Positions 8,824 through 60,335 of a stretch of DNA of 64,000 bases are shown here, one piece after another. The DNA lies in contig JAJEKV010000169.1 in the NCBI GenBank assembly GCA_021234155.1, forward strand, positions 1 to 64,000. The letters are read 5' to 3'. Numbering within the stretch: position 1 is the first letter of the stretch; the number at the start of each line of letters is the position of its first letter. Source of the stretch: Isoetes taiwanensis. Taxonomy: Eukaryota > Streptophyta > Lycopodiopsida > Isoetales > Isoetaceae. The translations under genes and the position numbers were made by a program. A model generated the notes under the pieces. It worked only from the letters and a program-made list of their open reading frames with translations, had not been told where the DNA came from and did not search any database.

Positions 8824-8971
8824 CAGGTCTTTCTTTCTGCAACACTCCTTCGACAGATCTGCTGAATGTTTGAATCAAAGTTCCGGTTAACCGGTTTGCA
8901 CAGCGGCCGCTCTGCAATAGTGGCGACCGCCAGTTTACAGGCGACAACGAGTTTTGAACAGTTTCCCGCAT

Positions 8972-12942: not shown

Positions 12943-12956
12943 TTGGTATCGAGCTA
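12943..12956 (+). promoter_or_regulatory. Primer-binding site (initiator tRNA-Met type)
   Basis: TTGGTATCGAGC lies immediately after the 5' LTR and resembles the TGGTATCAGAGC complement of plant initiator tRNA-Met used by most copia elements. Confidence 0.75.
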
Positions 12957-12969
12957 ACTAAATCCCCGC

Positions 12970-15900
12970 CTGATAATGACAAACAGATTCGGGGCAAATC
13001 TATTGAACTCTATTGAAGTTTTAAAGGAGATGGAGGATTTCAAACTGAAGGAGAGTATTAGAGCTTTACCGGAGTTTGAAAAATTGTGGTATTTGTTTGA
13101 TGGTAGTCCAAGAGGGGTGCAACTAGCTCGTGTGATTCAAGTCCCGCCGCTAGTAGTAGTAATGCTCAATCTGGTGCAGGGGGAACTTCGTGAAGGTGTG
13201 TCTACCGGAAGGACAACTTCTCCGAAGTTCGAGCGAAGATGAAGCTAAGATTATGGAGGCCCGTGCCATAATCATGTGTAAGGTAGGCACCACTGCCTTA
13301 AAACTGAAGCTTCGAGGCATGAAGCCTAAGGAAATGTGGGATTATTTGATAAAGCACTATGAACAAAAAGTTCTTCACAAATAGATGTGCTAGAAAAAAA
13401 ACAACGCTAAGGAAGATGAAATTGTTTGAGAAAGATAACTTGACCGACTTTTTGGAGATTTGATTCCATTATTACGCATCTTGAGGGAGCGGAAATATCT
13501 TGAATGAACAAGATCAAATACTAGCTTTGGCAAGAGCAAAGATCTCATAATAGTCACTTGGCAACTTTACTCCGAAATGTAGCCACTTCCAAGGAGCATG
13601 CTATCGAATGATACGCACGTAATTTGAAACAGTCTACTATTACCGTGGGAGGAAGCTCATCACCTCTCGAGATCTTGTATCTGCGTAAGACTAAAAGAGG
13701 TGGTTTTTCAAGAGGAAAAGTAGGACCTTGTTATGCATGTAATCAATTTGGTCACCTAAAAGAGTGAGTGTCCAAACAATAGTGAGAAGGAATTTAGATG
13801 TTTCAATTGTGAAGGCAAAGGTCATTTTGCTTCCGATTGCCCAAGCCCTAAAAAAGGGAAGAGGTCGAGGGAGATTTTCTGAACTTATAGAGGTGGCAAG
13901 GGGCAAAGGAAAAAATTCAAAGGAGGCTCAAGTATTAATGTGGTAGAAAAACAAGATAGTAGTGAAGGTGAACTTGAGGATGACACCTTGGAGGTAAGGA
14001 AGAATTTAACTTGCAATGTTTGAGTTTCCAAGGAAAAGCAATAACCAATTTGTTGTTATAGATTCAGGAGCGCGTAAAAAGTGTGATGTGTGATTTGTAT
14101 ATGCTTAAGGAGTGGGAAAAGAAAGAAGGACATGTGCAACTTGGTGATGGGGGTTTGAAGAAAATAGAAGATACTGGAGTTTTAGAGTTGTTTGACTTAA
14201 ATGGCAAAATTGTAAAATTGAGAGATGTTTTGTGTGTGCCCAGTCTTGTTAGAAATCTCATATCCGTATGCCAGCTGGTGGATTTGGGATATAAAGTGCT
14301 GTTTGAACAGATCCATTGTAAAGTGTTTCTTAATGGTGAATTAAAGTTTATTGGCAAAAGAGTTGGTAATCTTTTTGGATTGAATATGGAGCATCTTCAT
14401 GAAATTAATCTTGTGGAATATTCAGATGTGAAAGTATGGCATAACAGATTATGTCATGTAAATGCTGCAATAATTAAAAGGCTTGGGGAAAAGGGATTAA
14501 TATCTGCCAAGGTACAAAATGAAAAGTTTTTATGTGGAGGCTGCCAACTTGGAAAGCAATCAAGATTGCCATTTAAAAGGTCACACAAAAGAGCAAAGGG
14601 CATTTTGGATTTGGTACATACAGATTTATGTGGTCCTATAAATGTTACTAGTTTGAGTGGGCATAAATATTTCATGAGCTTTATTGATGATTTCAGCAGA
14701 AAAACCAAGTGTTATATTTTGAAAACAAAAGACCAAGCTAGTGATGCTTTGAAGTTATTTACTGCTGAAACCGAGCTAGAAACTGGAAGAAAGATAAAGT
14801 GCATAAGGTCGACATTGTGGGAGGTGAATATATCTCCATGAATTTAAAGCTTTTGTGTAAACAGGGGAATCAAGAGGCAATTGACATGCAGATACTCACC
14901 ACAACAAAATGGAATTGCGTAAAGGAAAAATAGAACCTTGCTTGATGCTGTGAGATCCATGTTGAAGTATTCTGGTTTACCAAATTATTTATGGGATGAA
15001 GCTGTGAAGACAGCTGTCTACATTCAAAACTTGTTACCTTCATCAAGTATTAAAGGTGCAATTCCAGAAATGCTTTGGTCTGGTAAGTCACCTTCTTATG
15101 ATAGATTAAAAGCATATGGGTGTTTATGCTTTGTACATGTTCCTGAAGAACTGAGGAAAAAGTTGGATGATAGAGCATACATATCTTATCTAGTAGGGTA
15201 TGATTCTAACTCAAAAGCATTCTGATTATATGACCCTCTAGAAGAAAAATTATAGTAAGTAGAGATGTGGTCTTCAATGAAAACGAATTTTATAGGAAAA
15301 TTCCTAAGATAAATACCAAGATCCATGTGAAAGTGAAAGGAAAGATAGTATTGAGGAAACAAATCAGTCAATAAGTGAAGAAGAAAAACTCAAGGATTGG
15401 AGCAGTAGATTTGAGTGACTCGATAGTGAGTCGAAATGATTCCAAGTAATGTTGTTGAGCCGAAGTGGAATCGTGTTTGAGCAAGAGATTGAACACCAAG
15501 AGGCGTATGGATAAAATTGATAGACCAAAAGAAAACCCAGACGAACGAAGCTCAAATGTTGGCAGAAGAAGCCAAACATGATTTAGAGTCTCATGGTAGA
15601 ACTGAACTTGGAAAAAAAGTAAAAGACTTAGATCTCGTGTAGGAGAAATTAATAATCGTATTTGACATTTTGATACTTGAAACAGCACAAGATTCCACAA
15701 AATTATATGGAGGCGCTCAAGATATGAATGGAAAGAACTGAAAATGTGCTATGGAAGAAGAAATGAGAGCATTCAAAAGAACAAACACTTATACAAGAGT
15801 GGATATTCCTTCTGATAAGAATATAGTTGGAAGTAAGTGGATCTATAGAATAAAACCAGAGTAGACAAAAATACAAAGAAATTTAAAGCCGTAACTTGTT

Positions 15901-17235
15901 GCACAAGGCTTTACAATTTAAAAAAAGGAGAAGATTTTGATGAAACATTCTCACCATTGGTAAAGATAAATAGTTTGAGAATGTTATTAGCTATTGCTAA
16001 TGCTTGTGACCTTGAAATCCATCATATGGATGTAAGTACAAACATTCTTGAATGCTAAGTTAGAGGAGGAAATTTATTTAAGACCCCGCACTGGATTTGA
16101 AGAGGAAAAAGGAAAAATTTGGAAGTTGAATAGAGCAGCTTATGGTCTTAAACAATCTCCTAGGGAATGGTATAAATGTATGGATGGATATCTTGTAGAA
16201 CAAGGTTTTGAGAAGCTCAATTATGATGGTAATATCTATAGGTTCAAAATGGGAGATGCCCTGGTGCATTATTGCTTTATATGTTGATGACAATATTATG
16301 ATATCAAAGGGAACTCAAGTACTAAATCATTGCAAAGATATCTTAAGGAAACGATTCCAAATGAGTGATCTTGGAGAGTTAAAGAGGTTTCTGGGCATAG
16401 ATGTTTACAGGGACAGAAATCACAAGATATTAGCTTTGAGTCAACAAGGGCATATTCAAAACATGTTGAAGAAATTTCATATGGAAGATTGCAATATGGC
16501 ATATACTCCTATGGTTCCTGGTCACAGAATCTCTGCAGATATGAGTCCAAAAACAGAAGCTGAAAGCAAACAAATGGAGAAAATACCTTACAGAAGTTTG
16601 ATTGGTTGTTTGTCCTATGTAGCCAATTGTACTAGGCCAGACATTGCATTTGCAAGCAATATTCTCAAGTAGGTACAATGACAGGGCTGGTAAAGGACAC
16701 TGGATTGCAGCAAAAAGGATCCTCAAATACTTAAAAGGTACAATGCATTTTGGTATAGTATTTAATGAAACCAATTTACAATTGCAGGCTTATTGTGATG
16801 CTGATTGGGGAGGAGATTTAGACAAACGAAAATCAACTTCAGGGTATGTTGTTTTATTAGGTGGAGCCCCAGTTGCTTGGAAGTGCAAGAAGCAAAGCAG
16901 CATTGCTTTATCTAGTGCTGAAGCTGAGTACAACTCAGCAGCCCTGTTGACTAAGGAACTTATTTGGGAAAGAAGGCTTATGGCAGAATTTGGATTTGCT
17001 CAAAGAGGACCAACAATCATTTATTGTGATAATACTAGTTGTATTGCCATGACAAAAAATCCAGTTTTGCACGAAAGGTCAAAACACATTGAAATGGAAG
17101 TTCATTTTATCAGAGATATGGTCAAAAGAAATCAAGTGCATTTGACCTATGTTAGTACAGCTGATCAAAGAGCAGATATTCTTACAAAGGCTCTACCTTT
17201 ATCCAGATTCCAGGAAATAAGGAAATTGTTACAAT
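12970..17235 (+). mobile_element. Copia internal coding region (gag-pro-int-RT-RNase H remains)
   Basis: Parts in order: gag at about 12970-13960, with two CCHC zinc-knuckle-like blocks (CYACNQFGHLK and FNCEGKGHFASDC) near 13730-13850; a protease to integrase junction near 14030-14300; the integrase zinc region (VWHNRLCHVNA ... CGGCQLGKQ) at about 14440-14570 and core (LVHTDLCGPI, FIDDFSR) at 14610-15230; reverse transcriptase at about 15730-16670 (AAYGLKQSPREWYK, ALYVDDNIMI, LIGCLSYVANCTRPDIAFA); RNase H at 16750-17235 (AYCDADWGGD, ALSSAEAEYN, HIEMEVHFIRD). No full-length frame remains; it is a fossil. Confidence 0.92.
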
Positions 17236-17255
17236 GTGATGACAGGGAATATCAC

Positions 17256-17267
17256 ATGAAGGGGGAA
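17256..17267 (+). promoter_or_regulatory. Polypurine tract
   Basis: GAAGGGGGAA directly abuts the TG start of the 3' LTR, as expected of the plus-strand priming site. Confidence 0.8.
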
Positions 17268-17807
17268 TGTTGGAAATGACAAAATTATGTGTCATGTGAT
17301 ATTCTAATCTATGAGAAGCAGTGGCAGTAGATTAGAGTTGTTAAATGGTGTCATGTTATTCAAAGTTAAGCAGTTGAATGGGGGAGACCTATGAGAAGCA
17401 GTGGCAGTAGGTCAAAGTCAAAGTCAAAGTCAAAGTCAAAGGTGGCGGGCACACCCTACCCGGGTGTTGCTGGGCTCGCTAGAAACACACAGACACCCCC
17501 TGCCCGCCACTTAGGGTTTTGGGTTGACTGGTCAACGGGTCAAAGTCAACGACAGCTGGAAGATAAGGACAGCAGGGCATCCTATTATTTAGGCAAGTTG
17601 AAAAACTTTCTATATGAAGGGCATGCACGATTTGACAAGTGGATATATCCAGGTTGATGAGAAAATATATATATGACTGATTGTCATAGAAAATATGCGG
17701 CTGAGTGCAGATACAGGTGCATGTATGCAAATATAGGTGCGGGAGGGGTTTGAAGGAGACAGAGTCTTGGCATACTTGGGTTCGAATCCCAAGCTCTGAT
17801 TCTAACA
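17268..17807 (+). repeat. 3' LTR of the copia element
   Basis: Begins TGTTGGAAATGAC and ends ATTCTAACA. Near its end (about 17776-17795) CTTGGGTTCGAATCCCAAG forms a T-arm-like stem around the GGTTCGAATCC B-box word of RNA polymerase III genes. In the 5' LTR the same block is altered. Confidence 0.92.
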
Positions 17808-18690: not shown

Positions 18691-21600
18691 TTAACAATAT
18701 TCTCATATTATAATCTACCAGCTCTCTGCTTTTATAGGTTGATCCTACTAAAGAGAGCCAGCCATATACTCATCGTAGAAATCCCATTGTACATTCTTAT
18801 ATGTTCTACATTGTCAAGTTTTTTGCATGATTTATCTCATACATTTAACAAATTATGTGAGCTAACATACGTGAGTAACAAAAATAACAAATTTTGCATG
18901 ATTTATCTCATGCATTTGAGCCTGTTCTTTATAGAAACCAATGCTCGTCATAGCAATAAAAATATTATCGAATTTCTATCCACGATGTGGTGGTAGGATG
19001 GAAATATTAGCTTCAACATGAAATAAATAACAATCCTTGAAAGACTAGATCAACCTAAGAAAGAAATTACGCAAATCAATTTAAAGAATGTGGTGGTCCT
19101 ATATTTTCACCATTACAACATCCACATGGGCCAGGTGCAATCCCAAGCACAACCCCAATGTGAATGGAGTTACTTACTTGAGTGAACCTAATCCTTTTTT
19201 GTTGAAGGAAGAGGAGGTTATAGTCTGTCCAACCTTGAATTCTTTTTGGATCTATCTTCCAAGCCCTTTAAGTTCATCCCGAAAGTGTTGGAATACATGT
19301 TGATCTACGACTTTACAAGCCCTCAGATTTATGATGAGAAAAAATGCTTCTTTCTATCTTGGCACAGGTTATTCATGTCAAACATATATTTAACAATGTA
19401 AACATGTGAAAGATTTAATTTGAAATAAATGAGGGTGCATACGTTGCTACAGGAACCAAGAACACGTGCAATGTGTTTGATGCAGGTAATTCAATCGGGA
19501 CTAACTGAGGGTAGTCAATCTACCACATATACATGAATTAGCTTTGGATAAAAATGGGATGCAATTAAGACAACTGTGCTCTTTGGTTATGTAGATGTAC
19601 AGTTGAATCCAATACCAATTGAAACCAACTAACAGTAGAGTGGTGGCCACTCCTATTTCTAGCTCCAAACATCTGCCATTTGGTACGCCTGCACATATTC
19701 ACTATTCGACTGAATACAAATATTATATTGTAATGCAAAAAACTTTCAGATCTGAACACATATGCATATGGCGCACTGAGCATCGACATACAAAAAGAAT
19801 GTTTCCTCCCTTGGTTGGGACAATTCCTATACCTCTGTAGAATCATCAGAAATAAGAGAATGATTTAGAAGAAAATAAGATGATGACTTTTACCTGTCAT
19901 CCTACTTCTATGGTGTTAAAAGCATCCTAGAATGATCCGACCAATAACCAAATTTGAGAAAGGTTGAAAATGATCCGACAAAAGTTTGTATGAGCCTGCA
20001 TGCCGAAAAACCTTGAGCTTAGCAATCGTGGCATGCATCCAGCTGCAATCGGATTCGAAAAGCAAGGGAAAAACCAAAATCATACGAAAGGAATTTCTCC
20101 TGATTTTTGGACTACCAGGAATTTATTATGGCGCCCAAACTTCTCAAAACCTTAGAGAAATTATAAAAATATTTGCCACTATATTGGAAAATCCTAAATT
20201 AACAAGATAGATTTTTGTAGATATTACTAATAACTAGCTAAGTTAGCATATTTTCTTCCCTTATGTTAATATGTTTCCAACAACTGTGTATCTAATAACC
20301 ACAACTTGCATTAAAGAATTTTAGATGTCTGTTGGACGCCTCAAAATTAATTGGTGGTACAACGAGGACAATTCATGATAGAAACATCAACTATAGAGCT
20401 CAATCCTATACCTAGCGCATAAAAAGTTCCAAACCAAAGATTGACGTTAACGCCTCTTCAAAGCTTTTCCGAGATAGAAGGCCTCGGTCTTCTAGGTAGG
20501 TTATATTGTCTAGGGAGTCTCGGTCTTCTAGGTTACATTGTGCAAATCCGTTTGAGGAGGAGTCTGATTTTGAGTCCACGGCTGATCCATTGCGTTTGAA
20601 TATCCCACAGGCGTTGTGAGCAAAAAAAGGAAGAGAACGAGCTATATATTCAGGTATGCTGCAAGTATTCGTTATCTTTGCGCTTGGGGCAATGACGCAG
20701 TTAGTGAGGTTTATCCGAGACGCGTCAATTGCTGGTTGAAAACTATTTCCAAACCCTTCCTCGGCTTCCTCACGGGAGCCAGGAAAATTCTGGAAGGCTG
20801 GCCTTTGGCTCCGGCCTACAAATTAATCGTAACTAGAAGCATTAGTTCTGCATATTGTTGCTGAGTTAAACAGACTGAAGCATGCTGAGGTATTAGCATT
20901 GTTTGCCATACTGAAAGCATTATCTTCGTAACCTTGGTCCTGGTATAAAAGATGTGAAGGGAAAATGACTTGCATCAATCTTCATTTCAGCCCTGGATCT
21001 TATAGTTGATACTTCAATTTGATGATTTTCCTCTGTTTAACCAAGTTGAAGCTCCATCTTCATAGCAACTAAGCTTGTTCGGTGATGGAGTCCAAAGCAA
21101 GTATGCATGGACTTGGCAAACGCTCTGCCACTTCTTGGCAAAGCCCACCAATAATGGCTAAAGCAGCTTTGTGTCAAAGAAGGCAACCGGGAGAGTGAAG
21201 GGACAGTCCAGAACTTGTATAGTAGAATGAATTCAAAGTAATAGCCCTTGGGAGAGGTGGTTGCCTTTATAGAAACCTCGCAGTAAATAAATAAATGCCC
21301 AAAAACGTGGATCTCCTAACCTGCTAACCAGATATTCTCACTTTTGCTAGATGTGCTGACTAATCCCCATGGTGCATCTTTGAGGAGCATGGGCTTAGCG
21401 AATAGACCTGCCAAGATTTTCTGTAGAGTAGAACCTGGTTAGAAAGTAATATGGTGGTAATGTGTTTCAATATGCTTCCTGGTCTGATTGTCATAGTTGA
21501 GGCTACTTCTGTTACCATATATATATATGGTCCTAATCCATAAGAACCCTTTCCTAGATGCTATCAGGAGCTAAATAAAGAGTCACAAAGTAGAGATAAA

Positions 21601-24279: not shown

Positions 24280-25251
24280 GCAGCACCATCAGATGTAAAC
24301 TCGGTCCCGATGTTATTGGGGATACTCTTCTTACGGGGTAGCATTGAGAGTCACAATGATATCGTGTTTTGCCCATATGGGCAATGCCATTGGAGCTTTG
24401 AACTAGCTTAGTGAAATGCAGTTTCAAAATTAAGAACCAGATAACGTTACATTTGTGAGTGTTTTGTATGCTTGTGCTTGTCTGCAAAATAACTACCATC
24501 TGATAAAGCTCGCAAAGTATCCGACAAAATGCAAGTGAAGAATGTGGTGTCCTGGGATGTTATGGTTTCAGCTTATGGACGTTTGTAATGATTTTAGGAT
24601 ACCTTCTTCATAAAGATGAGAAGAAAGGACTCACTTTATTTAATCAAATGGAAAAACTTGGTTCAAAAGCAGACAGTGTGACATATATTATAGTAGATTA
24701 CGTCTCTGCGTCCAATAGAGGAGCTTTAGAATGTGGTAGATTAGTGCACTCCCATTGCATAAAAGATGGTATGGATATTAAACTCTTTATTCAACCAGAT
24801 GACATCACATTTGTTTCTCTACTTTTCTACATGTAGCAATGTGAATCTTATAGATTCATGAGAGCATCTCTTATCTTATTTCTATGAGTGAAGTTTATGG
24901 CCTAAAAGCAACTGCTGAACATTATGAATGTCTGACTGATCTTCTTGTTCGCGGGGTTCCTTGTATGAGGCAAAAGACCTTCTAGATATGTTGCCATTTC
25001 CCTCCAATAACGTGTCATGGACATCTTTGCTTGCCTCTTGCAGAACATGTTATGTAACAGTGCTAGTGTTAGTAGAAATCGTTAATTCAGATCCTCAAGA
25101 TTTTGAGCCTTTAGATGGAGCAACTCTCATTTTGTTGTCAAACATTTATGCTCTTGCTGCTTGTGATAAAGGCAAAACAGATCCGACCAGTGACCAGATT
25201 TGTTCGGATATTGAGGAAGAATTGCAAAGAGCTAAAAGCTCGCACCAATAG
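24280..25251 (+). pseudogene. PPR protein pseudogene with E domain, inside the Harbinger-like element
   Basis: Plus-strand peptides in register with a PLS-class PPR protein: EPDNVTFVSVLYACACLQ (about 24441-24495), ARKVSDKMQVKNVVSWDVMV (about 24508-24570), FNQMEKLGSKADSVTYIIV (24636 onward), GALECGRLVHSHCIKDGMD, then the E region: GLKATAEHYECLTDLLVRG (about 24900-24957), YEAKDLLDMLPFPSNNVSWT, LLASCRT, LLSNIYALA and TDPTSDQICSDIEEELQRAK. The E domain order is that of plant organelle RNA-editing factors. The gene lacks its 5' part and a DYW domain and has at least four frame changes or stops. Its borders lie within the transposon, which suggests capture. It is a different gene from the PPR piece at 8.2 kb. 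Confidence 0.8.
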
Positions 25252-29169: not shown

Positions 29170-29510
29170 ATTTTTCACATTTGTTCTAGTGTTGGTGATG
29201 TGCAGGTACAGGTTGGCAAGCGACAACAGCTTCGACTTCTCCATTCGTGGGTTTTTTGGGAGCGATTTTTCAGCCTTACGTTTGTCCAAGCCCCTTGCCG
29301 AAGGCTTATCACTAGGGTTTTTCCTCGAAAACCCGAAAGGGCAGGGTTTTTTAATCTCGGTGATAAGCTTTCTGTAGGTACATAAACCAAACATTTATTA
29401 GCATTGTATTTTTTGGGGTCCAAATTGTATAATTGGACATTCCCTTTATTTTTCATGGGTAGTTCGCATGTGTGCTGCTACCCACTATCCAAATTAGAAA
29501 ACTTATGGGG
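29170..29510 (+). repeat. Dispersed repeat R1, copy A
   Basis: GGTGATGTGCAGGTACAGG ... GGGTAGTTCGCATGTGTG. The same sequence lies in inverse orientation at 60010-60335. It contains the structured motif at 29297-29375. Downstream words (TGTATT...GGGTCCAAA) resemble the 3' ends of the LINEs at 0.9 and 48.8 kb, so R1 may be the 3' end of a related LINE or SINE. Confidence 0.7.
29297..29375 (+). other. Conserved hairpin motif in R1, copy 2
   Basis: GCCGAAGGCTTATCAC (29297-29312) pairs with GTGATAAGCTTTCTG (29361-29375). The loop holds GGGTTTTTCCTCGAAAACCC, itself able to fold, and GGGTTTTTTAATC. The same loop with a differently spelled stem lies at 48690-48750. Confidence 0.65.
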
Positions 29511-31192: not shown

Positions 31193-32920
31193 TTCGATTT
31201 AATATGGGTTTCTAACAAGAGTTTTTTATGTATGCTTCCTACATTTGACATGTTATTTCTTACCCAAATGCACTCATAACATGTAAAAGCCTGGGGAATG
31301 CTTCAAGTGATTGTATCTGGGTGTATCAGGGTCATGGAAACTGCTGTGTGAAAACAGGGATGAGTAAGTGGTCATCATGCATAAATATTGCATTTTTTTC
31401 TTGTTAACCTTGTTTATAATTGCTTGGGCTTGCCTAAATTCGTGGTACAATGATCAGCTTTTCCAGTGGATGTAATGACATGTATTACCATTCTATTATA
31501 ATCAAAATTATTGTGAACAATGGTAACAGATCTTATTTCTCAGATCAAAGTAGAAGTAACCTATTAAATGCTTAAATGTACCTTGTTATTTCTTGCTTGC
31601 TTTATGCATTTACATGTATTGAACGTGATGCATTTACATGTATTGAACGTGAACTAAGCATTTACATGTATTGAATGTTGATGCATTTACATGTATTGAA
31701 CGTGAACTAAGCATGCCTATGGAAGCTATCTTTTCTCACGCAATCACACCATCACCAATAGCACCGCAAGCCTTGGCCAAGTCTACAAGGCACGCTTAAA
31801 ATCAACAGTCAAATAGTTGCCGTGGAAGGTACAAAGGCACGGAATTAGTGCAAGCATAGGCCTTGATTTTTTTCCTTTTAAGGGGACCGCTACAACTTGT
31901 TGACAAGTATGTGGATATAATTACTAGCTTACCTTGTACCATTGTCGGATGAGTTTGCAAAGCGTAGTATACCAAGAGCTTAACTATGTCCGTGTGAGCG
32001 CTTGGGTTACTTCATAGTCAACTCTTATAACTCGCTTTCTTCCTTTCATAACCGAGAACAAATTCATCATAAAACTTGCGGTGGTCCTTGACAGAGTGCA
32101 TCGCTTGGCTCCTATATTCGTGAAGTAGTCCTTAGATGTTTCTCGAACCTGCTACATGTTTTGCCTCCCTACATGTTTGGCCACTACATCATTGCTTTTT
32201 TATGAATGAACTTATATGTAACCGATTCTCATGAGCTGCTGTCTATGGACTTCTTGGGAGATAATGGAGTGTGAAAAAGAGAAGATAAAGACATATCTTT
32301 GAAGATCTTTCACATAGACATGGTTCATGCTAAAACGTATGATGAATCCCTAATGGCCATATGCCAAAGTAGCATACAGCTATGAAGATGAATTACATAG
32401 CTTAGCTAATATTTGTATGGAGATACAAATATACTTCAAGGAGTTGTATGGAGATAGACCAGATGTCATAGTCCCTGGTATGTTTTGGGATTATACGAGC
32501 ACCAAGTACCTTGGTAAATCTGTAACTCTAAAATGCAAGCAACCTATTCTTACATTCAACTTCCAAGCCTGCACCTCCAAAGATGCATGGATAAAGACAC
32601 AAGGATAATAAGTCGTTATCATGCAAAAATATTACATATGATAACAATTTGAGCATTTTAAAATTCCATTGACTTGTCTTCACTGTACATTCTGAGCATT
32701 TGAGTACAAATCATGTTGCATGAGCTATCTCAACAGTAAGAAATAAATAAAGGGGTAAAAAATTTGAATTTCAATGCTGGATATTGTGGTACAGTGACCA
32801 TCTTTTCCATTGCATTGGCTTCCATTTACTTATGTACAGTATTGCAAACCTGTGAATAGTGGTAGCACCTACGTGAATGGTGTATAAGCCACCATGCCCA
32901 CCCAATAGAAGAAGCTAAAG
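31193..32920. other. Unassigned DNA with diverged internal repeats
   Basis: No gene is recognised. Segments around 31368-31500 and 32600-32860 share words (TCATGCA-AATATT-CAT, GTGGTACA-TGA-CA-CTTTTCCA), which suggests an old duplication. Confidence 0.4.
31606..31712. repeat. Tandem repeat, four copies of a 22-27-bp unit
   Basis: GCATTTACATGTATTGAACG recurs four times with spacers GTGAT, GTGAACTAA and GTTGAT. Confidence 0.85.
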
Positions 32921-32939
32921 ACATCTTTTGTGGCCACAC

Positions 32940-33110
32940 GTATGCTAGCTGCACCAAAGTGATAAAGCTAAAGTTATTTAAGTCAAAGTGATAGCTAGCT
33001 GCACCAAAGTGATAAAGCTAAAGTCATTAAAGCTATTTAAAGCTAAACTTGCACCTCACATAAGCTATCATTGTCAAAAAGTTGCAAATCATAATCTTAC
33101 CTATTTTTTA
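32940..33110. repeat. Short tandem repeats next to the Mutator-like element
   Basis: AGCTGCACCAAAGTGATAAA occurs twice (about 32948 and 32998). The adjoining AGCTAAACTTGCACCTC ... GTGCAAATCATAAT block (33030-33095) recurs at 35830-35890 on the other side of the transposon, so the array predates its insertion. Such arrays often lie near transposon ends; the transposase-like gene at 36-38 kb is close by. Confidence 0.6.
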
Positions 33111-33121
33111 CATACCTCTAA

Positions 33122-35725
33122 GGGTTGAAAATATCCTTACCCTGGTTTTGGTGATTCCATCGCAAATAATTCCATCCCGCGGAATCACTAACCCTCCGGA
33201 AACGGGATCCGTTCCGAAGGCCCCGTTAACCGTACCTGACAACGTCAGGTGTACCTTCTGATGGATCCCAGCCATCCGTCTGTAGGGTCCATCCTAGCCG
33301 TCCGTTTTATACCTTCCGGCGGAATCACATTCGCAAAATACTGCCAGACGGAATCACCCCTCTGTTATTCCATCCGACGGAATCACCATTTGAAATATAA
33401 AATTAAAAAATTCAAATTTTTTACGTTCTTGGAGGTTTTTTCAGCCAGTGCAGTGCCGGCTATGGCGGCTTGCTCCGGGCGATCCGGCGTGGCCGGCATT
33501 TTTTTGAAGCTTTAGGGATGGCGACGATGGCGATGGCTCCACATCCTTGTTGCAGCTTCTAGGTTTAACTAAATCAGAGTTTAGGCGATCCACCATATTT
33601 TTTCGCAGGCTTAGACGAGTTCTTGTTTCTTCTTTTCTTGTTCTTGTTTTATTTTTGCTTCTACAGATCAGGCAGCAAAGGAGCCCAGAAGCTCAGCCTC
33701 TTCTGTTGTTCTACACTGTAAGTAGGTTATTCCGTTGTCCCCTTTCGCAGCTGGCTGACCTGCCATAGCCACCTTCTTCATTCAATCCGGCGCAACCCAA
33801 CTTGCTTTTCGTCTTTTTTTAAGCTCTGGCTATGGCGCTTGCGGTTCCGGCCGCCTTTCCTATTCTTTTCGATTCGGCGGAGCCAGCTCTTTTTTCTTTT
33901 ACCGTGGCATACATTCCGGTTCCTGCACATGCATTGTACAGCTAGATAGATTGGCTTTGTAGTGCTCCTCTCTATCCTGCGTCTTTCCTTCGATTCAATC
34001 ATTTTGATTCTTCTTCCGAGCTCTTCCGGAGCGGGATCACAGTGCAATTTTGGTAGTGCATTATTTTGAAATCTAATCTTTCTTGGTTCTCATGAAGAAA
34101 AAGATTATCTTCTTGTGAAATCCGAATAACGGCAAAAGAATGAGGATCAAGCGACTTCTTTGGGTTCCGACGGCAATGCAATGGGTTCTTCTTTGTTGAG
34201 ACGCTGCTTTCTTTTTTCTTTCTTGTTTCTTGTTTCCGCAGCAGAAAGGCACGAGTATTTGTGTAGACTGTTGCGAAATAGACATGCATTTTCAAGGATT
34301 TTGAGAAGACCCTCTAGATATTATTTCCCGATGCCAACAGAGGCGTCTTTTTAAATTCCTCGGCCCCCAAAAGCAAGCAGAGTTACCTGTGGCTCAACTT
34401 TAGCAGCAGCATAATTACCATGCTCTGCATTCCTTATGAAGATGGAGTAATGGATCTAACCTTTTTCCTACCAAGCTCAACCGTTGGGATATGGCTAGGC
34501 TTCCTTTTCAATTTTCGGTTCTCGGTTTTGCTTTCAAATTAAGAAAGCATTCATAAGCCCAAGCTGTTAAAATGCTTCTGTGCAAACGATTAAGTGTTGA
34601 ATTGATATAGATGAGAAAGTAAGCGTGTTTGTTTTTTTTTTGTCTACCAGTTTGTCACAGGGCTCTGGTGAGGCCGATCTGGCCTGGAGGTTCGAATCCT
34701 CCAACCCAAAGAGAACATCCTTCATTTCTTATTGCCGGAACAGGGTTATGTATGCTTAGCTAAACCATCCTGAACCAGTTTCTATGGAATTAGAGGAAAT
34801 TTATCTTGAACCATTTTCTATGGAATCAAATGAAAATTTGGGATTGAACCATGGTAATTTTTCCTCCCTGTGGCCTGGCCTGCAGACAGATAGGTTCGGA
34901 GCAATTTGAAATTCCATGATGATTCCACGGGAAGGAATATTATGGTATGTGATTCTACGGGGTAGAATATTATGGTACACGGTGATTCCACGGGTTAGAA
35001 TATCACTTAGATGTGATTCCATCCCGTGAATTACAAGTTGTTGGTGATTCCACTTTCGGCGGTATTTCACGAGGTGATTCTACCGGGGAATTTTGACGGA
35101 CGTGATTCCTACGGAGGGTATTTCACCATGGTGATTCCACCCCTACGGTATATCGCCGACGTGGTGATTCCATCCCCCGGAATCACATGTTGGTGATTCC
35201 GGCGGAATAACAGGTTGTAATTCCGTGCGGCGAAATAACACAATTGTGATTCCGTCTGCCGGAATAACACCACGGTTGTGCCAGATGCGGCCCGAGAATA
35301 GCAATGTTGTGATTACGTCCCACGGATCGTGAAGTGGTGATTCCATCTCACGGAATCAGACGCGTTAGGTGATTCCATCCGTGCTAATAGCATGGTTGTG
35401 ATTCCCGTCCGGCGGAATAACCGATTGATTAAATCTCGGAATAAATAATAATGTTGTGATTAGATGCCCGGTGGAATACATGAGCGATGATTCCATCTCA
35501 AGAATCGTAAATTGGCCATTCCATCGGCGAATAGTAAAGTTGTGATTCCGCCAGGAAGGTATAAATGACTCGAAAATTTTGTCGCACAAAACGGATAACG
35601 GGGGCTCGGGTACGAATAATCGGGGGGAATCTAGTAATGCGAATACTGGGGTCTGGGTTGGTGATTCCGCGGATGGAATTATTTTACATGGAATCACCAA
35701 AACCAGGGTAAGGATATTTTCACCC
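33122..35725. mobile_element. Mutator-like element (MULE), 2,604 bp, non-autonomous
   Basis: Terminal inverted repeats of about 37 bp: GGGTTGAAAATATCCTTACC at the left (33122) and, as reverse complement, GGGTGAAAATATCCTTACCC at the right (ending 35725), both continuing to GGTTTTGGTGATTCC. TACCTCTAA flanks both ends (33113-33121 and 35726-35734), the 9-bp duplication typical of Mutator. No MURA transposase is recognised. The interior has a GC-richer block at 33450-33560 and pyrimidine-rich exon-like sequence to 34400, possibly captured host DNA that I cannot identify, followed by an array of GTGATTCC modules. Confidence 0.85.
34905..35700. repeat. Array of GTGATTCC ... GGAATCAC modules inside the MULE
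   Basis: About twenty GTGATTCC-like words recur at irregular 30-50-bp spacing, many followed by a C/G-rich core and GGAATCAC or GGAATAAC, so that single modules are near-palindromic. A shorter set is present at 33150-33390 inside the left end, so these are extended subterminal repeats. Confidence 0.8.
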
Positions 35726-35734
35726 TACCTCTAA

Positions 35735-36157
35735 AGTATAAAAGCATGTGAGCTATCATTGTCAAATAATAACTTTAACTCCAAGATAAGGTCTATGCAT
35801 TTCTAAAGAAGCAACCTATTAAACTTATTTAAAGCTAAACTTGCACCTCCCGTGGTTATCATTCTCAAAAAAGTGCAAATCATAATAAGGTCTAAAACAT
35901 GCAAATATGATGCATATAAGCATGAAAGTGATAAAATATGCATGTATATTTATTCTTAAATAAGAAGAAAGCTTACAGGCTATGCTGCTGCTTTTGTAGC
36001 TAAGAAATATTTGTAGCTTTTGTGAGTAAGACCTATTGCAATGAGACATCATTCTGAATTGTTGCCAACAATCCATCACTGCCTGCACACAGGAACACTA
36101 CACCAAATACAGTTCCAGCATTAAAGAAGGGATCAAAGTCTTCAACCTGTTCATTCT
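35735..36157. other. Region downstream of the transposase-like gene
   Basis: AT-rich; holds the second copy of the AGCTAAACTTGCACCTC block. On the minus strand 36033-36245 is a second frame overlapping the end of the 671-codon ORF (KKAEARKKICAYQMKNEQVE); it could be an alternative C-terminus. Confidence 0.4.
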
Positions 36158-38173
36158 TCATCTGGTAAGCACATATTTTCTTCCTTGCCTCTGCCTTTTT
36201 TCTCTCCATTGCCTCAAAGAATCCTTTGCAGATGACATGTGCCATGCATTAGCCCTTAATCTTTTTCTTATTGTTGTTCTTAATCTCGATGCTAGTGTTG
36301 TCTCATTTGAACCCTTCTCCTTTTTTTCTAATCTGGCAACCATTCTTCTATAAAACCAATCTGACATTTGCTGTAAAGAACTAGAGAAATGTTTTGTGCC
36401 ACCATGTTGAGTAAATCTAAAATATGCATTTTTGGCCTGCTTATGTGACTTCTCCATGCCCTGAGTGTTCCAAATTCCCAAGCTTCCATACTCCTTGACA
36501 AACCAGGGACCATGAGCATACAAAATATGAATATAATGTGTTACTTCTGCTTCTCCCCATGCTGCAATAAATGATTTTGTAAAACTTGAAACAATGCTCT
36601 TAAATGCTTCCTTATCTTCATCTGTCAATTCCTTTTTGCTCATGAGTTGTACCAAAGGAATCAAAGACTGCCATGCTTTCATCTTTTTCTTATATGATCT
36701 TCCATGTTCTGTTCTATCATCTTCAGCTTTAAGCAAATCCTTGTAACATTCCCATTTACCATTAGCTCCAAGTTTTGGAGAGGGCAGAAACCTTTTTGCC
36801 TTCATCCCTCCCATTGAAGGTTTCGATGGCACATTTCCAGAGCGTTTGGGATCTTCAACTATCTTATAATTCCTCCCATGGAGGCCCAAATTGGATAGTA
36901 CCCTTTCTATTTCTGCAATGCTAGCATCCCTTGCTGACTTTGGAGTTTTATTCCATGCAAATAATATGCTCAAGTACACCATTTTGTCAAGTATTCTCAA
37001 GAAAGCATGCAAAGTACATATATGTACCCTCTTCAAATCAATTGGAAGAATAGGATCCAAAGTGCTGTCCTCTTGCTCTCGAGATGGAGGAAGACTTTGA
37101 TCGCAATCCAATGTGCTTTTGTTTCCTTGATTCTTCTTTGAGCCCTTGTCTTTTGGTATGAAGAGACAATAAGGGCATGCTGCAATGGTCTTTGCAGCGC
37201 CATGCTTCATCTTAAACATGCATTTGATTGTTTTTAAATCTGCAGCCATGTGCCATTCAACGTCGTAAGCTCCATAATCTGGAACAACTAGCTTCTCACC
37301 TACATTATGTGAAGCAATGAGTGTGGGAATGGAAGTTTGGTCAAAAACCCATTTTAGAACATGATACGACTCCTTGGGGACTTGAAATATTCCAACCCAC
37401 CATATATGTTCTTCGGATTGCACAGAAAATTTCTCCTCTTCAAGGTTAGCTGATGTAGAACAAAGAGCCCTGTTCATAAGAGTCACAGAAACACGCTCAT
37501 ACTTCTCACCTTTTATCATCTCCATCTCATCTAATTTTATAACAACCACCAATTTGCCATTGCAATCATCTATCTTCAGATTGTAGTACCTGACCATCAG
37601 CTTTAGTAAGCTTTTTAGATCAACCCAGCAATTGTTCTTCATGTCAAGGACAAACATGTTCAATGCTTCTTTAACTATTGTTGCTTTTTTTTTTGCACTA
37701 TTCTGCTCCAAAGCATCCAACCTGATCGATGAATTGATGTAAATCATATCCCCTAGGAGCTCTCTAATTTTTATGTTTCTGTATGTACGGCAAGACCAAA
37801 TCTTAGAGGCTGTAGGCAAAATTACTTTCTTCATAGCCATGTTTGATGATGTTTTCAAAACTTTATACAATTGCATGTAGGCCTTTTTGCTAAAACCTGC
37901 ATTATCACAAACATATTGAAGATCATCCACACTTTGCTCTTCATTTAACTCTTGCAGCACATTCTCAATTATTGCTTTTCTTAAAAGATTAGTACCTGGA
38001 AGGTTGATCAGCCTAAGGACATCATTTTTACTTACAATCTTCTTTAGTAACTTCAAATAGATGTCCTTCCTATTCCCTTTGTGATCTAGCATGGGATCCA
38101 TTAGAGTTTTTATGGCCCCGATTCTTCGTTTTGCTCCTCCTCCCACCGGCTTAAGTGTATCTATTGATCTCAT
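36158..38173 (-). CDS. Putative DDE-type transposase-like protein, 671 aa, superfamily unassigned
   Basis: This is the longest uninterrupted ORF of the window. The chosen start is the ATG at 38173; an in-frame stop lies 13 codons upstream. Visible features: a basic N-terminus (residues 1-50), a hydrophobic strand with acidic residues KLVVVIKLDEMEM (D215), WHMAADLKTIKCMF (D312) followed by HGAAKTIAACPYCLF with a CxxC pair (C333, C336), RVHICTLHAFLRILDKM (381-397), GLHGRNYKI and KPSMGGMKAKRFL (430-463), THYIHILYAHGPW (545-557) and GSLGIWNTQGMEKSHKQAKN (E574). D215-D312-E574 could form an RNase H-fold catalytic triad with a zinc-binding insert. The D.K...CxxC...LHA.LR order recalls large uncharacterised transposon-borne protein families of invertebrates and fungi; that likeness is from memory. 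It has no GAG/pol motif. It may be a recently active transposon gene or a domesticated one; no terminal repeats were found around it. Confidence 0.65.
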   Translation of the reverse strand: MRSIDTLKPVGGGAKRRIGAIKTLMDPMLDHKGNRKDIYLKLLKKIVSKNDVLRLINLPGTNLLRKAIIENVLQELNEEQSVDDLQYVCDNAGFSKKAYMQLYKVLKTSSNMAMKKVILPTASKIWSCRTYRNIKIRELLGDMIYINSSIRLDALEQNSAKKKATIVKEALNMFVLDMKNNCWVDLKSLLKLMVRYYNLKIDDCNGKLVVVIKLDEMEMIKGEKYERVSVTLMNRALCSTSANLEEEKFSVQSEEHIWWVGIFQVPKESYHVLKWVFDQTSIPTLIASHNVGEKLVVPDYGAYDVEWHMAADLKTIKCMFKMKHGAAKTIAACPYCLFIPKDKGSKKNQGNKSTLDCDQSLPPSREQEDSTLDPILPIDLKRVHICTLHAFLRILDKMVYLSILFAWNKTPKSARDASIAEIERVLSNLGLHGRNYKIVEDPKRSGNVPSKPSMGGMKAKRFLPSPKLGANGKWECYKDLLKAEDDRTEHGRSYKKKMKAWQSLIPLVQLMSKKELTDEDKEAFKSIVSSFTKSFIAAWGEAEVTHYIHILYAHGPWFVKEYGSLGIWNTQGMEKSHKQAKNAYFRFTQHGGTKHFSSSLQQMSDWFYRRMVARLEKKEKGSNETTLASRLRTTIRKRLRANAWHMSSAKDSLRQWREKRQRQGRKYVLTR

Positions 38174-40255: not shown

Positions 40256-40699
40256 GGTATTTGGGTCGCCTATTTCGTGTATACGTTAATCTGGTGACGG
40301 CACGTGGCATCTCTCTCCACTCCGGAATGCACCTCCGGTTCCAGCCAGTTAACATCCTCTGGTTTATTGAACAATTACTCTGTTTGTGTTTCGATCCATA
40401 GTTCCGTCCATAGTCCCTTTAGGCCCTTTTTCCACGGCCCTTCTGTCTTAAAATCATTGAACTAGGATTGGGCCACATCAGCATATAAGACACCATGGCT
40501 TTTCCATGGTAACTTTTAAGACGTGTCGCATTTCAAGTCCGTACAATCATGGTGTCACATTTTCTTCCGGGGGAAAACCCCCGCCACAAAATGCGACAGA
40601 CAAACATGGCCAATCCCAGGGCTTTCTGGCCGCAGTTTTAGGATGTCTTAGAAAAGGTACGCCACGAGGATGTTTATCGCCGGATTTGTGCCACAGCAT

Positions 40700-40830
40700 G
40701 AAACGCCCTGAGATTGCAGATGCCCTGAGATTGCAGAGGACCTGAAACGCCGGATTTGTCAAGAAATTGCAGACGCCCTGAAACGCCGGATTTGTCAAGA
40801 AATTGCAGACGCCCTGAGATTGCAGAGGCG
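40700..40830. repeat. Tandem repeat, 36-bp unit
   Basis: CTGAAACGCCGGATTTGTCA followed by AGAAATTGCAGACGCC occurs twice in tandem (about 40742-40814), flanked by partial units CCCTGAGATTGCAGA. Confidence 0.8.
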
Positions 40831-40965
40831 GGCCTCCGTTTTGGCACAAAGGGCAGCTTTCTTGCGCAGAGAAGATCCCAGAGGCCCAGAGATATTGTTG
40901 TTGCCCAAGGTCACGAAATTGCAGAAGAAGCAGAATATGGCCTCCGGAAGTAAGATTTGAGCAAG

Positions 40966-41158
40966 TCACAGAACAAAAGGGCCGAAGTCTGGCCGAATTC
41001 TTACTTGATTATATTGTTGACCACACAGAGGAATTGCAGTATGGAAATCGGATAAGCTTTTTGTACCAATGCCTTGATAATCTGATTCAAGTTTTGAGCT
41101 CTGCTGCACATAAGAAAGCTGAAGACGATCTTATCCAAGCTGATGACTGCTGTTAGAT
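40966..41158 (+). pseudogene. Unrecognised exon-like fragment inside the small Harbinger-like element
   Basis: An open stretch encodes KGRSLAEFLLDYIVDHTEEL, then QYGNRISFLYQCLDNLIQVL and SSAAHKKAEDDLIQADDCC before a stop. It is helical and protein-like, unlike its surroundings, and is probably captured host sequence. The family is unknown. Confidence 0.35.
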
Positions 41159-41438
41159 GACGGTTTACCAAAATAAGTTAGACTGTTGTTGATACTGCGA
41201 TTCATCTTCAAAATCCAAGGGGAAGGCAGACACGAAATTGCAGAAGAAGCAGCATGTGGAAAAGCTCAAATATAAGACACGTCTCATATTCATATGACAT
41301 GTCCTATATTTGAGCAATGGAAAAGTGATTTTTTTAGGGCGTGTCTTATTATGACGTGGAGGTGATGTGGAGCTTAAAACGGTGTCTTATAAAAATGTGA
41401 CAGCCATAAAATACGACTGCTGTGGAAAAAGGGCCTTA

Positions 41439-54827: not shown

Positions 54828-55326
54828 AACACACAACTACCATTAACACACAACTCCCATTAATATTATTAACATAAACCATTGCATTTAACACATTTAA
54901 ATTAAAACCCCCCTTAAACCCCCTTTGGTTTGGGTGCATATTCACACGGGGGGTTACTCCGGGCAATGAGGGCTGTCAGATGGACATATTTGCCCTTTAT
55001 TCCAAGATCTGGACCATACACAGCGATCCTCGTTTGTGGGGTATGCATGTACAAGTTTTTGTATACTGTATATTAAGGTTTGCAAAATACTATAAGGATT
55101 GAGAGAATGTACTTAATGGTGTTAATTTTGTACATGTATTGTAAACATATTTTTGGGGCTCTCGCTGCCCTACGTAACCCCCCATGTGAATATGCACCCA
55201 AGCCAAAGGGGGTTTAAGGGGGATTTTAATTTAAATGTGTTAAATGCAATGGTTTATGTTAATAATATTAATGGTAGTTGTGTGTTGATTGTTATATTAA
55301 AAAAAAATTTGGGCCCTTCGGGCCCT
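54828..55326. mobile_element. Foldback (MITE-like) element with terminal hairpin, copy 1
   Basis: Long inverted repeats of about 120 bp: CAACACACAACTACCATTAA at the left and TTAATGGTAGTTGTGTGTTG at 55268-55288, continuing inward to GGGTGCATATTCACA and TGTGAATATGCACCC. A 220-bp spacer follows the arms. To the right of the arm comes AAATTTGGGCCCTTCGGGCC (hairpin 55311-55325) and CTAACTAA. Copy 2 at 57140-57505 carries the same hairpin, so it belongs to the element. Confidence 0.8.
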
Positions 55327-56451
55327 AACTAAAGCAGAAAGAAAATGGGAAAATCTTCCACCAAACGGAGAAATGAAGAAACATCCATTCAGCACTATTA
55401 CAAGTTCAAACACCATATATATTAATTCTTGCTCAACAAGCAATAGAATGTGAAAAAACATATCTCATAGAAATCTTTGCATTTCCACACAACAATAAAC
55501 AATTGTGTGTGTTGTGGTGGCACACTCGCTCCATGGTAAAAGGTGCAGGTCGTTGTAGAAGCTTGCCACTGTTAACCATTTTGCTCCACCATTTTGCTCC
55601 ACTATTTTGTGCTGAAGCAATTTTTCTTTGTCCAGTTTTTACGGCCACAAAATCCCCTGTGTTTCTATGTTTGTGCCAAGCCTAAAAAATAGAAAAATTT
55701 CAGTAGTAAGAAGGTCCTTTTCTTTCTAGGGGAAAATTGACTGTGGCAATCAGTTTGGACCAAAAAGGCGCTTGATTGGTAATGGCATATATGTCAAAGC
55801 ATCGTTTCAGAATTATTTTAAAAAATTGCAACTTGCAAAATAGCAGTTGTGATATGCTGCAGCATACAATGTACAGAGGCAAAAACACCCTAAAAAGTGG
55901 CCAGAGAGGAAACATTAAGATCCTATGCAACTTAAATTCACATTCTCCACATCTTACCGGGCCATTGTCCCTGCTCATAGTAACAAATGCGCACACTTTT
56001 TGCACCACTAGCAACAAAGAAATTTGTTCTCCGGAAAGAGGAAAATAAAAGAGACAATAGAAAATTATAACAATAACCGCTCTAACAGACCAATATTTGG
56101 TATATGTTTCATGCATGGATAAATCAAGATTTCATGAGCATGTTACACGCAAATGCAGCTGCAAACATGTGCACGCAGATACCTATTAGAGATAGATTAG
56201 AAATGAAATACCTTTTGGACTCCATTTCACAGAAATAGCTGCACGATTAAGCCGTAAAATGACAAGTGTTGCCTGCCAATCATTCTTCTCTAGGTTCCAA
56301 ATATACCTGACAGAAGTGCAGCTGTGTTACTATCCAAGCCAAAATCAATAGCCACATTGTCATGACATATTCGACTCTCTCATTGCCTAATGAAGTCCAG
56401 TCCTTTCAAATTTATATTAGCTGAGAAAACTATATCCAACAGATTCGACCA
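55327..56451. other. Unassigned DNA; possible NFU downstream region
   Basis: No further exon of the NFU-like gene (expected to carry the CxxC motif) could be recognised on the minus strand here. Confidence 0.4.
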
Positions 56452-56584
56452 TCAATATGACCATCAATTTCGTGCAATGCTACATTCCCTCCATCAGACA
56501 TTAAGTAGGGTCTCACTTCATCAAGAACCATCTCCACATTTTCTTCTGTCAACGGCAAGCCATCATCTGTTTCGTCCAGGAGTT
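56452..56584 (-). CDS. NifU-like (NFU) protein, one exon
   Basis: NFU proteins are iron-sulphur scaffold or carrier proteins of plastids or mitochondria. The minus-strand exon starts after CTTGCAG and encodes [20 protein letters not shown] and [20 protein letters not shown], an almost invariant block of plant plastid-type NFU1/2/3 at the start of the first NifU domain. The downstream exon with the metal-binding CGSCPSS motif and the transit-peptide exon were not found, so this is a partial gene or isolated exon. The exon itself is unbroken. The donor is uncertain: the frame runs on as [10 protein letters not shown] to a stop. Confidence 0.65.
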
Positions 56585-56619
56585 CTGCAAGGAACATCAA
56601 AGGCATTAGGTTTGACATG

Positions 56620-57000
56620 TCGGCAGGTCATACAACGAAAAGGCTACTACAATAGAATGATGCGCAGAACCAGAAGTAACCAAATAGATCTTAATGGCGT
56701 CGTCTACAGGAGGCAATCCTCTAGGTATGCCAGAAAATCTATCTTCTGGTGCTAATGGAAGCAGAATGAGTCTGGAAGTCGCCATTACTTCTAAATTTTT
56801 TGCAACTACGCTAAGCTAATGGTCTTGAATCTTACATCGAGCCTCTATGCCTGTAATCTTATCTTGCTAATCCCTGTTGTTGCAGATTTGCAAGCCCTAT
56901 TTCCTGCCCTAAAATGCTATCCACGAGGCTTGCATGTTCAGTCCCTAAAATAAAAAGAGGGCTTTTGTTGTGAGCCCTTGGATGTTGGACCATTCAAAAA
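56620..57000. other. Unassigned DNA between NFU exon and repeat
   Basis: If the NFU gene is real, this is intron on the minus strand. No second exon is visible. Confidence 0.35.
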
Positions 57001-57140
57001 AAAAAGCTAAATCAACGACTAAGAAATGGTGCACTCTAGATGTACGCATTAGTACATCCATTCGAATACGCCATGAAATCTTAGGAAAACCTTTGTGAAA
57101 AGCGTACAAAAACACAAAGAAAACCCCCTGTTATTATGCT
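57000..57140. repeat. Dispersed repeat, copy 1 of 2 flanking the xylulokinase piece
   Basis: AAATCAACG.CTAA ... GGTGCACTCTAGA ... CCCCTGTTAT.ATGCTA matches 59517-59665 in the same orientation. Confidence 0.65.
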
Positions 57141-57505
57141 ACATATTCACACAAAGAGAGCCTTCGGATGGGCATATTTGCCCTTTATTCCAAGATCTGG
57201 ACCATACATAGCGATCCTCGTTTGTGGGGTATGCATGTACAAGTTTTTGTATACTGTATATTAAGGTTTGTAAAATACTATAAGGTTTGAGACAATGTAC
57301 TTAATGGTGTTAATTTTGTACATGTATTGTACATTTTTTGAGGCTCTCGCTGCCCCCACGAACCCCCGGTGAATATGCACCCAAACCAAAGGGGTTTAAG
57401 GGGATTTTAATTTAAATGTGTCAAATGCAATGGTTTGTGTTAATAATGTTAGTTATATGTTAATAGTTTGTGTTAACTAAAAAAATTTGGCCTTTCGGGC
57501 CTTAA
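57140..57505. mobile_element. Foldback element, copy 2, left arm truncated
   Basis: From TTTGCCCTTTATTCCAAG to GGGTTTAAGGGGATTTTAA it is closely alike to copy 1 and ends with the hairpin GGCCTTTCGGGCC. The left arm is missing up to ACATATTCACAC. Confidence 0.8.
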
Positions 57506-58935: not shown

Positions 58936-60009
58936 TCATGGATGGAAATTTGAAACCGAAAGCGCATAAATTTGTTACCGCATGACTTATTATTTGCATG
59001 GAATCGAAAGCCCAAAGATTCAAGATGCCCAAAGATTTGGATTAACACACAAAATATACAACTTAGCCCTATTTCTTAAACCCTAAACCCTCCAAACACA
59101 AAAAAAGATATCCATGGTAGATGATTTACCACGAAAAAAACATGTGCAGATTTCCCCAGCCCGACATGCCGCCGCAAAGACGCCTCGCCGCTTTTTGGGG
59201 TGTGTAAGATCTCGATCGAATCGTTGGTAAAATTGTAGAGCTGAAGCTTTCTTCGTCGATGCAGCTTGCGGCTTAAAGGGTGCAATCTACTCCGCGAAAT
59301 CCTCCATCGCCCAACTCCTGTGAATTTCGCGGCTCAAGGAAAGCGCCGTATTAACGTCCCTCCCCGGGGCCAAAGATAGCCGCTTAGGGCAACCATGCCG
59401 ACTTTGCAAATTATCACCGCTATTGGCATAAAGCTTTTTAGCTTTTATCCGTCCCGCTTAGAACCGTAAAAAACCCTAAAAATAATGGGAGGATATCCAC
59501 CACGGGATTTGCCCCTTCTCTAAAATCAACGGCTAACAAAAGGGTGCACTCTAGAAATACTATTTAGTACACCTGGATGAATACGACCACCAAATCATAT
59601 GAAAACCTTAGAGAAAACAGTACAAAAACAGAAAAAAAACCCCTGTTATAATGCTAGATATTCAAAGCACTGCTCTATTTTATATCTGATAAGGGAGCTC
59701 CGGATCGCATTGCATAGCTGCAGGATCACGGTTGGAGCCATCCTATTCTGTAATACAACAGGAAAAAACAGGGGAAGACGAACAACTGGGAAAAAACAGG
59801 GGACGGCGAACCTGTACAACATGTCAAATTTGTTGTTGCCGGAATGTTGGATTCAACTTCCATTCCGTCGTGGAAAACATACCAGGTGGCATCAAGAGGT
59901 TGATTCTCCAACAAAATAGTGACCCCAACCTCCATTCTAGAATGGGACTCGCAAGAAACCAACAAAGCGCCCATAGATAGGCTTCTCATTCATCTCAGCA
60001 GATTTTCTA
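58936..60009. other. Unassigned DNA with dispersed repeats
   Basis: Two adjacent CCCTAAA words (about 59077-59093) match the plant telomere unit but are too few for an array. A short block (59930-59975, ATTCTAGAATGGGACTC.GCAAGAAACC) recurs at 60612-60657. Confidence 0.4.
59517..59665. repeat. Dispersed repeat, copy 2 of 2 flanking the xylulokinase piece
   Basis: Matches 57000-57140 in direct orientation; both contain GTGCACTCTAGA and end near CCCCTGTTAT.ATGCTA.ATATTCA. Confidence 0.65.
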
Positions 60010-60335
60010 CAATGGTGGACAGTGGGTAGCCGCACACATGCGAACTACCCACGAAAAATAAAGGGAAAATCCAATTATATCATTTGGACTCCAAAACAAA
60101 TACAATGCTAATAGATGAGTGGCTGATGTACCTGCCGAAAGCTTATCACCGGGATTAAAAAACCCCGCCCTTTCGGGTTTTCGAGGAAAAACCCTAGTGA
60201 TAAGCCTTCGGCAAGGGGCTTAGACAAACGTAAGGCATAGAATCGCTCCCAAAAACCCCCGCATGGAGAAGTCGAAACGGATGCCGCTCGCCAACCTGTA
60301 CCTGCACATCACCAACACAACAAACGAGAAACATA
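60010..60335 (-). repeat. Dispersed repeat R1, copy B
   Basis: Reverse complement of the R1 unit at 29170-29510, closely similar over the whole length, including the hairpin motif (60134-60214). Confidence 0.75.
60134..60214 (-). other. Conserved hairpin motif in R1, copy 4
   Basis: GCCGAAAGCTTATCAC and GTGATAAGCCTTCGGC pair over 16 positions with one mismatch; the loop reads GGGTTTTTCCTCGAAAACCC on the minus strand. Confidence 0.7.

Follow-up and report, generated by a model that had tools for sequence, protein, structure and literature searches.

What does the one long open reading frame of this locus encode, and is it held by a transposon or by its host? The frame occupies 36158..38173 on the minus strand of the window (the whole 64-kb stretch of DNA that was analysed), coordinates that take in the stop codon, and runs from ATG to stop over 671 codons without an internal stop. 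A first-pass annotation, which gave no strand, had described it as an intact, transposase-like protein of unassigned superfamily. On the sequence features set out below, we consider it highly probable that the product of this ORF is a cut-and-paste transposase of the DDE/RNase H type and belongs to the CMCT clade (CACTA/EnSpm-Mirage-Chapaev-Transib, including RAG1). We adopt this reading because the segment of RAG1 with its catalytic Glu and zinc ligands is matched significantly and because the full D-D-C(2)C-H-H(4)H-E set is present, D215, D312 and H389 being placed by order and spacing only; the transposase-like character proposed earlier is thereby supported. The assignment to the CMCT clade is well supported.

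An unbroken frame amid decay

The intactness of the frame was borne out by frame scanning and simulation. Between stops it extends over 684 codons, as against a longest stop-free run of 230 codons (mean of maxima 155) when the window was simulated 200 times with a first-order Markov model; the plus strand over 36158-38170 holds 37 stops. It is also, as had been claimed, the sole long frame, the runner-up among ATG/GTG/TTG frames being 252 aa in length and belonging to a broken Copia-type element. The pieces scanned with Pfam agree with the description of the window as full of decay: among 10 other frames, short pieces of Copia-type pol, pentatricopeptide-repeat (PPR) and weak reverse-transcriptase sequence were encountered, and 5/10 gave no match at E≤0.1. 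The residues singled out at first pass, namely D215, D312, E574, the pair C333/C336, HILYAHGPW (from H549) and GMEKSHKQAKN (with E574), all lie at the positions named. Among the matches listed, no description of this protein was found in the open-licence PMC literature.

No relatives emerged from the prokaryote, viral and phage collections that were searched. None was confirmed for the whole protein among three pattern matches in viral contigs and seven in prokaryote genome contigs, nor for a 76-aa C-terminal piece, which had one pattern match in viral contigs. A tblastn search of phages gave no match at E≤10. Pattern scans in the viral and genome contigs yielded 17 loci, which produced no tblastn match to the protein at E≤1 when searched together; the best value against two of these loci alone (E 0.45) was dismissed as chance.

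Similarity to RAG1 and the CMCT residue set

Scanned as a whole, the protein matches no Pfam model above cut-off, and RAG1 is absent from its matches at E≤1. Pfam was also run on four fragments (residues 1-200, 190-345, 375-620 and 480-671), and the best family of both C-terminal fragments is PF12940 RAG1 (E 0.011 and 0.0048), at sub-threshold scores of 15.5 and 14.3 bits versus a gathering cut-off of 25. A phmmer search of the PDB likewise ranks RAG1 first, with E 0.018 for the whole protein and 0.0059 for its last 297 aa; RAG1 accounts for 15 of the 20 matches listed in each search, the remaining five being a helicase that matches further on. The similar segment spans residues 493-578 (36440..36697, minus strand). 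Against mouse RAG1 702-1007 it attains a Smith-Waterman score of 88, which was reached in 0/1000 shuffles (mean 38.5, SD 5.7), and BLASTP of the protein paired with mouse RAG1 gives E 2e-6 over residues 541-578. The ORF has the top RAG1 score among the 123 window frames of at least 80 aa, the second scoring 45. Both the PDB and the Smith-Waterman alignments put E574 (36452..36454, minus strand) on RAG1 E962 and H549-x4-H554 (36512..36529, minus strand) on H937/H942, which we take to be the catalytic Glu and zinc ligands of RAG1, respectively.

A yardstick for such values is offered by RAG1 and Transib, whose shared ancestor is accepted on functional and structural grounds, according to PMC7204232: with the same tool, mouse RAG1 as query retrieves HzTransib at E 0.009, the aligned region overlapping the one matched here. 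When our protein was added to a RAG1 profile, HzTransib was absent at E≤10 in one search and appeared at E 0.06 in another, versus 0.009 for RAG1 alone, the query lengths of these searches being different. In sum of its likenesses, the protein resembles RAG1 (PF12940) in the order and spacing of the catalytic and zinc residues and in the significant similarity of residues 493-578; it differs in a D-D half that lacks significant similarity and in length, at 671 aa versus a chain of 1040 aa.

The signature of the CMCT clade, as defined in PMC12730594, comprises C(2)C and H(3-4)H between the second D and the E, the Figure 4 legend there speaking of "2C and 3H". The order of residues here is D215, D312, C333-x2-C336, H389, H549-x4-H554 and E574; that of mouse RAG1, with positions read from the chain, is D600, D708, C727-x2-C730, H795, H937-x4-H942 and E962. 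Residues fitting all eight clade-defining positions are present in order, and the spacing is RAG1-like for the seven that were measured: D-D 97 here versus 108 in mouse RAG1, D-C 21 versus 19, C-C 3 versus 3, C-H 213 versus 207, H-H 5 versus 5 and H-E 20 versus 20, with 359 and 362 residues, respectively, from the first D to the E. C333-x2-C336 (37166..37177, minus strand), the proposed zinc pair and counterpart of RAG1 C727/C730, is the single CxxC of the protein, whereas the HxxxxH spacing of H549/H554 is present also at 384 and 590. The first-pass statement that no signature of CACTA could be seen was not quite right, as the C(2)C and H(3-4)H motifs, which here lie between D312 and E574, are shared by CACTA (PMC12730594). 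H389 (37007..37009, minus strand), located in ICTLHAF, is proposed by order as the third conserved His. We infer that the third His of the signature in PMC12730594 is RAG1 H795 and that H389 is its equivalent, the local alignment being neither significant nor in that register. A loose ordered pattern omitting H389, the limits of which were set after both proteins had been seen, occurred in 25/20,000 shuffles of the protein, and it fits the real protein two ways, one with H595 in place of H554.

Nothing significant was detected outside residues 493-578, so that D215, D312 and H389 are assigned by order and spacing. For residues 190-355, no solved structure was matched at E≤10. Residues 200-345, aligned with RAG1 from V596 to past the zinc cysteines, were equalled by shuffles in 496/1000 cases (local) and 716/1000 (semi-global), and the best alignment pairs neither D215 nor D312 with D600/D708. 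Residues 373-480 compared with RAG1 were no better than shuffles (317/1000), and 90-residue tiles outside the RAG1-like segment had z of at most 2.8. D215 (37529..37531, minus strand) and D312 (37238..37240, minus strand) are accordingly proposed as first and second catalytic Asp, counterparts of D600 and D708 by order and spacing. Among the acidic residues put forward earlier as plausible DDE positions, E574 therefore stands by its alignment with E962, while D215 and D312 fit in order and spacing and remain unpaired with their RAG1 equivalents. AlphaFold models built without relatives had a mean pLDDT of 35.8 (whole protein) and 35.5 (residues 190-620), both unusable. In the latter, D215 comes after a strand, D312 ends a strand and E574 is in a helix, as would be expected of RNase H; in the whole-protein model E574 is again in a helix and D312 neither in nor beside a strand. 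Both models are too weak to count.

At first pass, a confident hit outside the transposase families had been named as counting against a transposase; none was found in Pfam, PHROGs or NCBIfam. PHROGs and NCBIfam gave one weak match each (E 0.097 and 0.052), both rejected. SRPRB and Ebp1_C, matched in the N-terminal helical part at E 0.005-0.06, were regarded as noise, although in their own fragment their E-values are as strong as those of RAG1, because neither functional residues nor a second line of evidence back them. IML1 (E 0.018-0.072) and other Pfam matches from the fragment scans were rejected likewise, as were five helicase/UvrB sequences on residues 585-639, past the catalytic segment (E from 0.067 with the whole protein and 0.024 with the last 297 aa).

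Could the likeness to RAG1 itself be due to chance or convergence, in a protein that is not a transposase? Database-wide E-values of only 0.005-0.02, and a signal confined to about 85 residues with none in the D-D half, would accord with such an explanation, but we think it very improbable: E574 was picked before any search and lands exactly on E962, the score is reached by none of the 1000 shuffles and is the best of 123 window frames, and C333/C336, H389 and H549/H554 are all present in order. Pfam and PDB also concur, though both matches rest on the same RAG1 proteins. As for the superfamily being "unassigned", this holds insofar as no curated Pfam match lies above cut-off; it does not hold in view of the CMCT residue set and the RAG1 similarity.

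A CMCT transposase of this kind would presumably adopt an RNase H fold that carries a zinc-bound insertion and catalyse its reactions by the two-metal DDE mechanism. The N-terminal 200 or so residues may bind the transposon ends, at which the enzyme would cut before joining these ends to target DNA. By analogy with RAG1 and Transib, a hairpin might possibly be formed on the flanking DNA.

Placement within the clade

No match to the Pfam models for CACTA, Mirage, Chapaev or Plavaka was reported for the protein or its fragments, the presence in the library of models other than PF18759 being assumed. The models in question are Transposase_21 PF02992 for CACTA/EnSpm, PF06869 for Mirage and PF06918 for Chapaev, following PMC3985635, as well as PF18759 for Plavaka. 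The protein shares C(2)C and H(3-4)H between the second D and the E with these four groups (PMC12730594), but their models do not report it, and it would therefore be a divergent or less-studied CMCT member. No Pfam or solved-structure match was reported for hAT, MULE, PIF/Harbinger, Tc1/mariner, piggyBac or P, in searches whose HMMER filters drop weak matches. Transib-like, ESTA, Lanisha and unnamed lineages are all open as candidates.

Transib, with which Chapaev has been grouped according to PMC4411706, has the CMCT signature in common with our protein (PMC12730594), and mouse RAG1 recognises HzTransib at the overlapping segment with a strength similar to that seen here. It differs in that HzTransib (6pqn), the single Transib chain seen in the structure library, was not matched by the protein at E≤10, and in that CAC-type ends with a matching 5-bp target site duplication (TSD) are lacking here. 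Lanisha and ESTA, compared by description, have the same motif set (PMC12730594); that source also relates that ESTA was recognised through its RAG1 likeness by HHpred, and cites the proposal of Lanisha in Repbase Reports 2020 by Maumus, McDaniel and Carey.

These comparisons bear on whether the protein belongs to a CMCT lineage that already has a name, most plausibly Lanisha or a plant Transib-like family, a reading to which we accord somewhat less than an even chance. The authors of Lanisha reportedly work on a moss. In favour of a named lineage, Lanisha is described as EnSpm-similar with the same C(2)C/H(3-4)H motifs (PMC12730594), and 39 plant Transib-like proteins are on record (PMC9435367), whereas the failure to match HzTransib argues against it. 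A further proposal, in which the protein represents a land-plant CMCT lineage apart from CACTA and all named lineages, has the RAG1 core as its closest solved relative and survives in this copy as a host gene, strikes us as unlikely.

Cut-and-paste elements of land plants are divided into six TIR superfamilies in PMC9033089, and that review makes no mention of Transib. A plant transposase closer in sequence to RAG1 than to plant CACTA would, if true, extend the repertoire known from plants and serve as an outgroup in tracing how RAG1 and Transib arose. Were it kept as a gene, it would offer a plant parallel to the domestication of RAG1.

Transposon or host gene

A generic scan for terminal inverted repeats (TIRs) with 4-10 bp TSDs returned three candidates versus 0-5 in 12 null runs, which is chance level. 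Transib termini carry a heptamer of CAC type. Such ends with a 5-bp TSD, the length given for Transib in PMC7204232, formed 33 pairs in the window, with a best TSD match of 3/5. CMCT ends are described in PMC12730594 as 5'-CA..TG-3' with a TSD of 2-5 bp "in most cases"; within 24000-50000, CA..TG ends with TSD amounted to 40 pairs versus 25-55 in 20 null runs, a scan by which decayed ends would be missed, and the best score was 14.5 versus 13.0-14.5 in null runs. Two further candidates for the ends of the ORF's element were rejected: a 28-nt inverted pair (35902-35929/39458-39485) is at chance level (E 2.1), and the inverted arms 33123-33177 and 35671-35725 are part of a separate inserted element.

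The ORF is poor in CpG. Its observed/expected ratio (O/E) is 0.23, the lowest 5% of 2-kb windows lying below 0.29, and its 16 CpGs compare with 77.5 under free synonymous choice and 32.2 with its own codons shuffled; Arg is encoded by AGR 33 times and by CGN five times. Elsewhere, O/E is 0.62 in the 527 bp upstream of the ORF, 0.23 in the broken Copia, 0.98 in the inserted downstream element, 0.27 and 0.45 in the PPR pieces, 0.37 in a LINE-like piece and 0.40 in 31200-33120. Between the 3' end of the ORF and the inserted element, 431 bp (35727..36157, no strand assigned) have an O/E of 0.08 (one CpG) and are possibly the 3' part of the same unit. Since the frame is CpG-poor yet unbroken, its CpGs would have been lost while it was kept, which suggests that selection held it open, whether in a transposon lineage that stayed active or in a gene of the host.

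The second of these possibilities, a domesticated CMCT-type transposase that lost its terminal repeats and is now of use to the plant, for instance as a factor that binds or cuts DNA, appears improbable to us. The frame is intact amid decay and no TIR or TSD rises above chance, but decay or nested insertions also explain missing TIRs. O/E falls from 0.62 in the upstream 527 bp to 0.23 in the ORF, as in a body-methylated gene; yet a long-methylated but active transposon lineage gives the same pattern, and low CpG is common in the window. The depletion fits synonymous avoidance, as the Arg codons illustrate, so that coding constraint probably applied while the CpGs were being lost, and the broken Copia has reached an equal O/E without an intact frame. 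Domesticated transposase genes often lose catalytic residues, while all those proposed here are retained.

Other features of the window

Several further features of the window were noted. The stop of the ORF is separated by about 430 bp from a non-autonomous DNA element (33122-35725) with near-identical inverted ends of 55 nt (93%; 33123-33177 and 35671-35725), the same 9 bp TACCTCTAA on both flanks (33113-33121 and 35726-35734), internal TGATTCC/GGAATCAC subrepeats and a CpG O/E of 0.98, measured on 33121-35726; it looks like a young MULE-type insertion. A 70-bp direct repeat (86%; 33026-33095 and 35818-35886) flanks this element, and its two copies would therefore have stood in close tandem before that insertion.

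The broken Copia-type pol lies at 12393-17807 (gag_pre-integrs, SH3 and weak rve by Pfam). Direct repeats at 12393-12942 and 17269-17807, 89% alike and both containing an AGTCAA microrepeat, are possibly its LTRs. Apparent PPR pseudogenes occur at 8207-8874 on the minus strand (Pfam PPR_2 on 8210-8599, E 1e-11) and at 24507-25251 on the plus strand (PPR_2 on 24507-24833, E 8.4e-6, sub-cut-off). Together with the U4 RNA match given below, these PPR pieces would be in keeping with a plant host, which the first-pass annotation had supposed. Inverted ends of 18 nt, AGGCCCTTTTTCCACGGC (94%), together with inner inverted repeats, mark 40421-41436 as a possible small DNA transposon. A foldback-like structure at 54839-57505 contains the inverted repeat 54839-54973/55158-55292 (91%) and, at 57152-57505, a second partial copy 88% identical to 54964-55328. 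A 330-bp repeat is present in inverted copies, 88% alike and 30 kb apart, at 29170-29501 and 60003-60334. Finally, 20674-20809 on the plus strand is a full-length match to U4 spliceosomal RNA (98.7 bits), either a gene or a pseudogene.
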